From the NCBI RefSeq assembly GCF_022819385.1, contig NZ_CP089290.1, forward strand, positions 372,001 to 436,000: DNA of 64,000 bases, read 5' to 3'. The notes beneath the pieces were generated by a model, which worked only from the letters and a program-made list of their open reading frames with translations, searched no databases and was not told the DNA's origin. Positions 14,552-16,211 of the stretch are shown in pieces. Positions within the stretch are counted from its first letter, which is position 1, and the number at the start of each line of letters is the position of its first letter. The stretch is from Candidatus Nanosynbacter sp. HMT-352 (lineage in GTDB: Bacteria; Patescibacteriota; Saccharimonadia; Saccharimonadales; Saccharimonadaceae). The position numbers and the translations under genes are program-made.

Positions 14552-15421
14552 CTACCGTAACGTCCAGTTGTTCGCCCCGAGAGGTTTGATAACACCGTTG
14601 ATTTCTAGCATTGTAAGCGCCGTGGCAAAATCTGATGCGGATAATCCTGATTTTTGTTGAATTTCGTCGCCGTCACGCAGCCCTTCTGAGATGAGTTTTA
14701 TGATAATAGCTTCTTCAATTGTTGCGCTGGCTGCTAATTCTTGGCCGTTGTCTTTTTGTAATCTCTCTGGCGCGATGATTGATAAAACATCGTCGGCGTC
14801 TGTCACCAAATACGCCCCTTGTTTTAATAAAGTATTACAACCCGCCGACAGTGGGCTGGTTATGTTTCCGGGAACTACAAACAAATCTCTTCCCTGATTA
14901 AGTGCATGCGAGGCGGTGTTTAGTGTGCCGCTTCGCTCGGCGGCTTCAGTGATGATAATGCCATCTGCCAGCCCACTAACCAGCCGATTGCGCTCCAGAA
15001 AACTCCAACGATTGACTATTTTATTATCGCCCTTCATCCATTCTGAAACGACCGCGCCACCCTGCTTTATGATGCTCATGGCTAGTTGATAATTGGTCCG
15101 CGGTGAAATATCAGGAAGCTCGTTTGGGACGACCGCCACGACCGTTCCGCCAGCTTCAATTGCAGCTTTTTGGGCAATGCAATCCACGCCTAGCGCCAAC
15201 CCGCTCACGATTACACATCCGGCTTTTGCCAGATCTGTTGCTAATCGCTCGGTCACTTCTTTTCCGTAGGCAGACGGCTTGCGGGACCCGACGATTGATA
15301 CGACGGGCGCGCTTACTTCTGGCAATTTTCCCATATAACATAAGCTTTTTGGTGGATTGGCAATATGCGCTAATCTCTGGGAGAAAATATGTTCATCTGG
15401 TGTAATTCTATTGATTTCCAT
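14552..15421 (-). CDS. dprA: DNA processing protein DprA
   Basis: A 289-aa RecA loader acting on incoming single-stranded DNA in natural transformation. The Rossmann-fold core shows SIVGSRKPSAYG, SGLALGVD--A, and GTLNTASHALNQGR-VFVVPG-like motifs, then a C-terminal winged-helix segment. The ATG at 15421 is preferred to an in-frame ATG at 15448: the extra N-terminal residues are unlike the family and would overlap the divergent promoter at 15442-15470. Presence of dprA agrees with the known natural competence of Saccharibacteria. Confidence 0.9.
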   Translation of the reverse strand: MEINRITPDEHIFSQRLAHIANPPKSLCYMGKLPEVSAPVVSIVGSRKPSAYGKEVTERLATDLAKAGCVIVSGLALGVDCIAQKAAIEAGGTVVAVVPNELPDISPRTNYQLAMSIIKQGGAVVSEWMKGDNKIVNRWSFLERNRLVSGLADGIIITEAAERSGTLNTASHALNQGRDLFVVPGNITSPLSAGCNTLLKQGAYLVTDADDVLSIIAPERLQKDNGQELAASATIEEAIIIKLISEGLRDGDEIQQKSGLSASDFATALTMLEINGVIKPLGANNWTLR

Positions 15422-15441
15422 AAAAAATGTGGTAAAAAGTA

Positions 15442-15470
15442 TTGACACTTTGTCAAATGTTTGCTATAAT
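15442..15470 (+). promoter_or_regulatory. Perfect sigma-70 promoter driving an RNA gene
   Basis: TTGACA (15442-15447), 17-base spacer, TATAAT (15465-15470), a consensus promoter and the strongest on the plus strand here. TTGACA-CTT-TGTCAA forms a perfect inverted repeat across the -35, and TTTGTCAAATG is shared with the promoter at 11290-11318, suggesting a common regulator. Transcription should start near 15477, divergent from dprA. Confidence 0.8.
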
Positions 15471-15476
15471 CAAGGA

Positions 15477-15790
15477 CGATTGGTTAAGTAATCATTAACC
15501 AAACGCACCTTATACCCCCTATTCTAACTATATGTTAGGTTGCGCGCAATGGCATTAAGTATTCTTACCCTCCACTTTTTGCGGTTCAACGTTACGCGCA
15601 TACTAACCCCTTTAACTGCCCTTTTTCAAAGGCGACATCCGTTAAGGCGAGCACTAATTGGTGTTGATAATAGTCAGGCGCGGACTTTTGGAGTTTTAGT
15701 CGCGACGCTTCGCTGATACGGTAGCTCGGGTGGGTTGAAGGGTAAAAAAGCGTCAGGTGATGCCCACCCTTACCTGGCGCTTTTTTGTTG
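15477..15790 (+). ncRNA. Structured noncoding RNA of unknown family
   Basis: About 315 bases between a consensus promoter and a strong terminator. Visible helices are TTGGTTAA/TTAACCAA close to the 5' end; TGCGCG plus AATG (15541-15551) with CGTT plus CGCGCA (15590-15600); TTAAC...GTTAA enclosing a GCC-TTT/AAA-GGC hairpin near 15620-15650; GTCAG-CG/CGCTGAT enclosing CGC-GACT/AGTC-GCG near 15675-15715; and the terminator. GGGTGGG (15728-15734) can also pair with CCCACCC (15763-15769) in the terminator loop, a pseudoknot. No RNase P, tmRNA, SRP or 6S signature was found. A 55-codon frame from 15549 lacks a ribosome site and is thought to be chance. Confidence 0.7.
15744..15790 (+). terminator. 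Intrinsic terminator of the RNA gene
   Basis: A 15-base-pair stem, AAAAAAGCGTCAGGT (15744-15758) with ACCTGGCGCTTTTTT (15772-15786), with one G-T pair and a T run on the plus strand. The A-rich left arm means it can also end the minus-strand fur transcript. Confidence 0.85.
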
Positions 15791-15797
15791 GGAAAAA

Positions 15798-16211
15798 TTA
15801 TTTATTTTCTATAATATGTCGGCACTTTTCGCAAATACCTTCCAGCTCAAAGTGGTGTTTTGTGACTATGAAATTATGTTTTTTACCAATGAGATCTATG
15901 AGTTTTTCGAGTTCTTGCGATTGTATAGGTTCGGCATTTTGACAATTGATGCAGTAGAGATGGTGGTGATGTGGTATAAAAGGTTCCGCTAACTCGTAAT
16001 AATTCTTCCAGCCAATAGTTATGGTGTTTATAATGTTCAAATTATCGAACATCAGTAGCGTGCGGTAAATGCTGGCGCGGTTAATGTTTTTGCAGTTTTT
16101 TGCAATATCACCAACCGTAAGAGGCACATCTGAATTTCGCAGGATGTCAAATACTTGCTGGCGAGGTTTTGTCAGGCGAAGATTGTGGCGTTCAAATATT
16201 TCATTTAGCAT
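15798..16211 (-). CDS. Fur/Zur-family metal-responsive repressor
   Basis: A 137-aa regulator with a winged-helix N-terminus (LTKPRQQVFDIL, recognition helix NRASIYRTL) and the dimerisation/metal domain: HHHH at 81-84, CINC at 87-90, HH at 119-120 and CEKC at 127-130. The two CxxC pairs form the structural zinc site. It lies at the end of a minus-strand run behind a YraQ-type permease and its TIGR03943 partner, so it probably controls them. Whether it senses iron, zinc or peroxide cannot be told. Confidence 0.88.
   Translation of the reverse strand: MLNEIFERHNLRLTKPRQQVFDILRNSDVPLTVGDIAKNCKNINRASIYRTLLMFDNLNIINTITIGWKNYYELAEPFIPHHHHLYCINCQNAEPIQSQELEKLIDLIGKKHNFIVTKHHFELEGICEKCRHIIENK

Follow-up and report, generated by a model that had tools for sequence, protein, structure and literature searches.

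Several large structured RNAs with unknown or partly known function have been described in bacteria, among them OLE, raiA, ROOL and GOLLD. The RNA reported here resembles them in that it stands alone, extends over hundreds of nucleotides, is highly structured and is limited to one lineage, but it differs in that its terminator loop is kept as a probable pseudoknot element. Further likenesses exist to RNase P RNA, which is of similar size and has paired distant segments, and to tmRNA, which is of similar size and pseudoknotted; however, a separate RNase P RNA exists in these bacteria and a separate tmRNA is found in 53 of 61 genomes. 6S RNA, which binds RNA polymerase and templates a product RNA, is comparable as the concept of a stable constitutive RNA, whereas the RNA investigated here is longer, comprises multiple domains and gives no 6S match. 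In the literature on noncoding RNA of Saccharibacteria, Patescibacteria and Nanosynbacter, none is described in the titles and abstract openings listed; one complete genome is reported with two ncRNAs (PMC8830319).

An autonomous RNA gene with a consensus promoter

We analyzed a window of 64,000 nt from Candidatus Nanosynbacter sp. HMT-352. The RNA is encoded by an autonomous plus-strand unit (window positions 15442-15787) located between a divergent dprA and a convergent fur gene (Table 1). An earlier note on this DNA had read a TTGACA-17-TATAAT promoter and a T-run terminator from the sequence, and both readings proved correct: the promoter agrees with every consensus letter and carries a TG ahead of the -10 element, and in the MFE fold the terminator forms a stem of 18 bp capped by a loop of 9 nt, the 3' side of the stem continuing into six T. 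A terminator scan with a loop limit of 8 did not have this 9-nt-loop hairpin among its plus-strand entries.

When we compared 80 RNAs, the promoter spacing was 17 in 76 and 16 in 4 of them, and the TG ahead of the -10 element was present in all 80; because the 80 RNAs were excised by a TTGAC...TA...T pattern, independent evidence is limited to the TG and the narrow range of spacings. From this near-consensus extended -10 promoter we predict that the RNA is transcribed and constitutively expressed. A palindrome, TTGACn5GTCAA, lies over the -35 element in 34 of 76 promoters and is a possible operator. In the window (15442-15459) the GTCAA is located at 15455-15459, with a spacing shorter than in this palindrome.

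Table 1. Positions of the RNA, its structural elements and the flanking genes in the window
Feature	Position	Strand	Details
dprA, divergent neighbour	14552..15421	-	Pfam PF02481; ATG at 15421, 21 bp from -35
A-rich stretch, possible UP element	15431..15441	+	consensus 'aaa.gt.TTGAC' in a MAFFT alignment of 81 sequences
Promoter TTGACA-N17-TATAAT, extended -10	15442..15470	+	12/12 consensus letters; -35 TTGACA 15442-15447, 17-nt spacer, TG 15462-15463, -10 TATAAT 15465-15470
RNA, 311 nt	15477..15787	+	ends predicted from promoter and terminator
Helix H1, 5' hairpin	15477..15505	+	15477-15487 with 15495-15505; two-sided changes in 8/10 pairs; 83.9% of cells paired
Conserved segment ACCUUAUACCCC, unpaired in the model	15507..15518	+	exact in 65/80 RNAs
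P2	15524..15538	+	CUAAC 15524-15528 with GUUAG 15534-15538; alternative to the P3 base
Helix P3	15534..15607	+	15534-15551 with 15590-15607; two-sided changes in 11/15 pairs; 94.8% paired
UACCCUCCAC near the P3 tip	15566..15575	+	exact in 72/80 RNAs
Helix P4, closes the 3' domain	15608..15742	+	15608-15617 with 15733-15742; 98.5% of cells paired
Variable 3' domain, long form in the window	15618..15727	+	
Putative pseudoknot	15728..15769	+	GGGUG 15728-15732 with CACCC 15765-15769 of the terminator loop
Terminator	15748..15786	+	stem 15748-15760 with 15770-15782; loop UGCCCACCC 15761-15769; T run
fur, convergent neighbour, rarely conserved	15798..16211	-	Pfam PF01475

Homologues and distribution

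A search with DprA led to a close record, OX335598.1 (Candidatus Saccharibacteria bacterium, genome G001), in which the RNA is located at C1:195952-196307. Between the window RNA and its G001 counterpart (L001), 2 of 311 positions are changed, compared to 39 of 290 third codon positions between the two dprA genes (94% identical), so that the RNA changes more slowly than its neighbours. Using blastn, we found a match at E<=0.1 in 117 of 150 relatives of G001, some of them short or weak. Iterated nhmmer detected the RNA in the window and in 89 of 90 loci around blastn matches (none in L090), a fraction that gives no prevalence because the loci were chosen by similarity. The relatives share the promoter, the helices and the invariant segments, and the family has a length of about 250-400 nt.

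Prevalence was determined with covariance models at a threshold of E<=0.001 per genome and with strict filters. The model of the 5' domain (R1) matches 208 and the model of the 3' module (R2) 340 of 392 genomes of the class (Saccharibacteria), with one match in nearly every matching genome and two in a few. The 184 class genomes without an R1 match and the 52 without an R2 match cannot be equated with absence of the RNA, because relatives of G001 were the source of both models and the filters were strict. In an even draw of 379 genomes of the phylum, R1 matches 24 and R2 33; all matching genomes are also in the class sample, and no match was found outside the class among the 379. Within the sample, the RNA is restricted to the class. 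Phage and plasmid collections contain no match to it. One pattern led to two contigs in IMG/VR, where the remainder of the RNA is missing and neither nhmmer nor tblastn with DprA gives a match, and we took this finding as chance.

Gene neighbourhood

We found dprA near the RNA in 75 of 90 matches, corresponding to 71 of 85 distinct ones, and in 69 of these 85 it is the opposite-strand 5' neighbour. Among 65 later loci, several of which share genomes, a divergent dprA is present in 53 and by the same test in none of the other 12. The fur gene is near the RNA in 8 of 90 matches and 7 of 85 distinct ones, and we discarded a fur linkage on this count. The earlier note had implied a link of the RNA to the dprA-fur interval, which did not hold: dprA is usual, fur is incidental and the RNA is also found without an adjacent dprA. 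Fifteen of the 90 matches have no dprA beside the RNA; in three of them (L004, L056 and L069) the locus starts at the end of a contig on the dprA side, and L025 and L044 are one place, which leaves 11 matches without an adjacent dprA. At L044 (= L025) and L091 the divergent position is taken by topA, which Pfam identifies as a DNA topoisomerase gene. A peptidyl-tRNA hydrolase, whose protein cluster contains 16 flanking proteins, lies 3' of the RNA at L027; among the clustered loci the 3' neighbours vary in kind and strand. With no conserved co-directional downstream gene, and with fur on the opposite strand in the window, the RNA does not have the arrangement of a cis-regulatory leader.

The frequent neighbourhood of dprA would fit a cis element for this gene, in which transcription from the promoter of the RNA, 21 bp from the dprA start, would occlude the promoter of dprA or the RNA would pair with a dprA leader, and the possible operator described above would fit as well. 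However, RNAs complete with promoter and terminator also occur without an adjacent dprA, and the selection on internal helices and loops (see below) would be superfluous for occlusion or plain antisense pairing. We therefore regard a cis element for dprA as unlikely.

Conserved helices and C-rich segments

The 311-nt transcript, closed at both ends by hairpins, has an MFE of -104 kcal/mol (z = -3.86), and 0 of 100 shuffles are equally stable. For comparison among homologues we defined a set of 81 sequences, from which repeats (L002, L018, L025, L030, L031) and truncated loci (L004, L056, L069, L093) were removed, and a set of 74 sequences for a tree-based test, taken from the 80 RNAs, which leaves out L065, L068, L073, L075, L077 and L084, as their 5' part is unaligned. 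Alignments A1 and A2 contain 53 of the 74 sequences (5' domain of 135-170 nt, <90% identical), A2 being a MAFFT alignment built without structure, and A3 contains 68 of 82 pieces of 72 nt. On A2, 87.1% of the cells are paired compared to 36.4-47.4% in slid-partner controls. Two-sided changes occur in 42 of 64 pairs on A2, which was matched by 0 of 500 shuffles, a control that kinship among the sequences can beat even without structure. The tree-based covariation test is stricter and passes only 3 of 31,878 column pairs at E<=0.05. Two of these belong to the terminator and the third to P3, and they are paired in 74, 74 and 68 of the 74 sequences. The terminator, P3, H1 and P4 account for 17 of the 30 top-ranked pairs in this test, and the remaining ones involve mostly columns from the variable stretch. 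RNAalifold on A1 recovered P3 de novo, with 11 of 15 pairs compensatory; H1 was not recovered in that run.

The stable helices that the earlier note had claimed within about 315 bases are thus borne out by fold energy, homologues and covariation. It had also looked to an alignment of orthologues for covariation, and compensatory changes are indeed many in H1, P3 and the upper terminator stem (9 of 10 pairs with two-sided changes) and few in P4, where 3 of 10 pairs show two-sided changes and 4 of 10 are invariant. A small hairpin drawn at the P3 tip shows poor pairing, with 31.4% and 13.5% of cells paired, and the lowest part of the terminator as aligned reaches only 65.4%, perhaps owing to register shifts between sequences.

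Besides the helices, two C-rich segments are conserved for which the molecule offers no clear internal partner, namely ACCUUAUACCCC after H1 and CCCUCC near the P3 tip, the latter invariant across the 53 aligned sequences. In partner tests on 75 of the 80 RNAs, cis complements of ACCUUAUACCCC were not above chance (5-mers in 38 of 75, 39.9 expected; 6-mers in 8, 11.5 expected). For the P3-tip segment the 5-mers were not above chance either (23 of 75, 24.6 expected) and the 6-mers slightly above it (11 of 75, 6.1 expected); a contact between the P3 tip and the 3' domain was not retained on these values. We also rejected a switch in which ACCUUAUACCCC would replace the 5' strand of P4: P4 reads CCCUUUGAC in seven RNAs and ACCUUAUACCCC is unchanged in six of them (not exact in L088), so that it does not follow the change in P4.

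Such segments would be expected of a trans-acting antisense regulator of many mRNAs, in which CCCUCC and ACCUUAUACCCC could pair with Shine-Dalgarno regions, by analogy with the staphylococcal RNAs whose UCCC loops pair with these regions. In our judgement, however, a regulator of this type would not usually show strict class-wide conservation over several hundred nucleotides, and we consider this explanation improbable.

The terminator loop and its partner

The terminator combines a freely varying stem with a conserved loop: TGCCCACCC is found in 88 of 90 matches, with a variant in L060 and a match in the 5' part alone, near a contig end, in L093. This is the fairer count, because the set of 80 RNAs required the loop TGCCCACCC and the promoter, which dropped L060, so that loop identity within that set is partly by construction. 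The bases on either side of the loop change in concert (GA/TT in 69, GG/CC in 9 and two others; n = 80). In L085 (755-1092), noted alongside the GG/CC flanks, P4 and the terminator are separated by an insert.

The earlier note had located GGGTGGG at 15728-15734 and CCCACCC at 15763-15769, where both are indeed found, and had proposed that they pair. The GGGUG-CACCC pairing is present in 95.8% of cells, with zero covariation. A 5-mer complementary to UGCCCACCC occurs in the 3' domain of all 75 RNAs tested (39.9 expected) and a 6-mer complement of the terminator loop in 73 of 75 (11.7 expected), counts that are descriptive only because the shuffle was mononucleotide and the sequences are related. 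The partner, GGUGGG, is located just 5' of the P4 3' strand, upstream in the 3' domain, or at both sites; in the short forms of this domain, which carry GAGGUGGGUCAC or GAGGUGGGUCGC and make up 33 of the 80 RNAs, the upstream site is the hairpin GUGAGGUGGGUCAC. A search for strict GGTGGG in the 80 RNAs found it at the strand only in 36, in the hairpin only in 22, at both in 17 and at neither in 5; by eye, L054 and L029 of these five have GTGGG, L017 and L019 have GGGTGG and L098 is a pattern miss. A complementary 5-mer in 75 of 75 RNAs at one of two places argues for a pseudoknot with the terminator loop, which we consider supported, not proven: the mobile partner motif speaks for the proposed interaction, whereas the particular pairing put forward shows no covariation.

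Known RNA families and protein frames

A search of the whole window at Rfam gathering scores yielded two tRNAs only, and nothing in Rfam 15 exceeded its cut-off on the RNA in the window, in region 15300-15900 or in 8 homologous loci. There is therefore no sign of membership in families of the OLE, raiA, ROOL and GOLLD type as Rfam holds them. At E<=10, region 15300-15900 gave four sub-threshold matches, of which the best, Atu_C9 (E 0.0023; 20.8 bits, cut-off 40), lies on the opposite strand over the terminator and the fur end; the low-stringency matches in this region and in the homologues are scattered and all sub-threshold, and they were dismissed. The earlier note had recognized no signature of RNase P, tmRNA, SRP or 6S, and the Rfam-wide search agrees. 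RNase P RNA (RF00010) and tmRNA (RF00023) give no match here and have separate genes over cut-off in 57 and 53 of 61 genomes, respectively (in G001 at C1:59527-59868 and C1:62640-63039), and ARAGORN found no tmRNA within the window.

The 6S model (RF00013) is over cut-off in 0 of 61 genomes, which says little because it finds only 5 of 14 controls. Of the SRP RNA models (RF00169 and RF01854), the small one is over cut-off in 0 of 31 genomes, with one weak match (controls 12 of 14), and the large one in 0 of 31 (controls 9 of 14). The RNA might thus be a divergent 6S or SRP RNA missed by the Rfam models. However, neither matches here even at E<=10, and the Ffh M domain (PF02978, SRP_SPB) was found in 0 of 31 relatives of G001 compared to 14 of 14 controls, so that an SRP RNA would be without its usual partner. 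SRP subunits are mentioned as missing from many CPR bacteria (PMC8080830). Two weak 6S candidates, moreover, sit near RNase P instead, and altogether it is very unlikely that the RNA is a divergent 6S or SRP RNA. These candidates, L035 1501-1652 with 39.5 bits and L036 1501-1654 with 32.4 bits, stay below the cut-off of 46.4 bits; in two genomes they are found no more than 1 kb from the gene for RNase P RNA, possibly as a divergent 6S RNA of this group.

That there is no convincing protein frame, as the earlier note had claimed, was confirmed in 60 RNAs with all three anchors: taken modulo 3, the anchor distances occupy all nine classes, and the longest stop-free stretch has a median of 55.5 aa compared to 56.5 aa in shuffles. 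A small protein gene or dual-function RNA, suggested by a 58-aa frame (15540-15716) that is clearly alike in L005-L007, can hardly be upheld, as the frame has only weaker partial matches elsewhere, the stop-free lengths are shuffle-like and the anchor distances are not multiples of three.

A housekeeping-type RNA as the favoured explanation

Promoter and terminator, covarying helices and the lack of a conserved frame characterize a stand-alone structured noncoding RNA, and we are almost certain that it represents a real RNA family. The claim of a new, lineage-specific structured RNA is supported by the homologues, the covariation and the Rfam negatives, new meaning here a family without detected relatives, whose broad kind is familiar. 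The further label 'regulatory' is unproven, and a housekeeping role fits at least as well, because the RNA is present in most of the class, nearly always with one match per genome, and is strongly conserved. Where a noncoding RNA is retained throughout a bacterial class, its promoter strict and its loops invariant, its task is usually a basic one, and the conservation of this RNA likewise suggests a basic cellular role. With moderate confidence we favour a housekeeping-type structured RNA that would be stable and act in trans.

As a housekeeping-type RNA, it would be driven constitutively by the near-consensus extended -10 promoter, with H1 sealing the 5' end and the terminator hairpin the 3' end. 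The terminator loop would be locked by the pseudoknot onto the GGUGGG segment of the 3' domain, which would give the terminator a second role within the structure of the mature RNA. ACCUUAUACCCC and the CCCUCC at the P3 tip would probably form the surface that a protein or a second RNA contacts. A bolder version, which we put forward only tentatively, is that the RNA founds a class of housekeeping RNP RNAs, ancestral to this class of ultrasmall bacteria and characteristic of it, that took over a general function and uses the terminator loop as a core tertiary contact as well; its setting would be a lineage without detected Ffh or SRP RNA and in which 6S RNA is not recognized. The host bacteria have very small genomes, and genetic methods and published Tn-seq (PMC10633639) have recently become available for them, so that the function of the RNA is directly testable. 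In that Tn-seq study, on Southlakia epibionticum, dprA did not belong to the genes required for fitness.

A minor element is P2, whose complement was found in 45 of 70 RNAs compared to 19.4 expected, with a pattern that cut some segments at a later GUUAR; several of the longer inserts between the P2 halves fold as hairpins. The GUUAG at 15534-15538 has competing complements, the upstream CUAAC (P2) and the downstream 15603-15607 (P3 base), and this alternative pairing may represent either an intermediate in folding or a switch.
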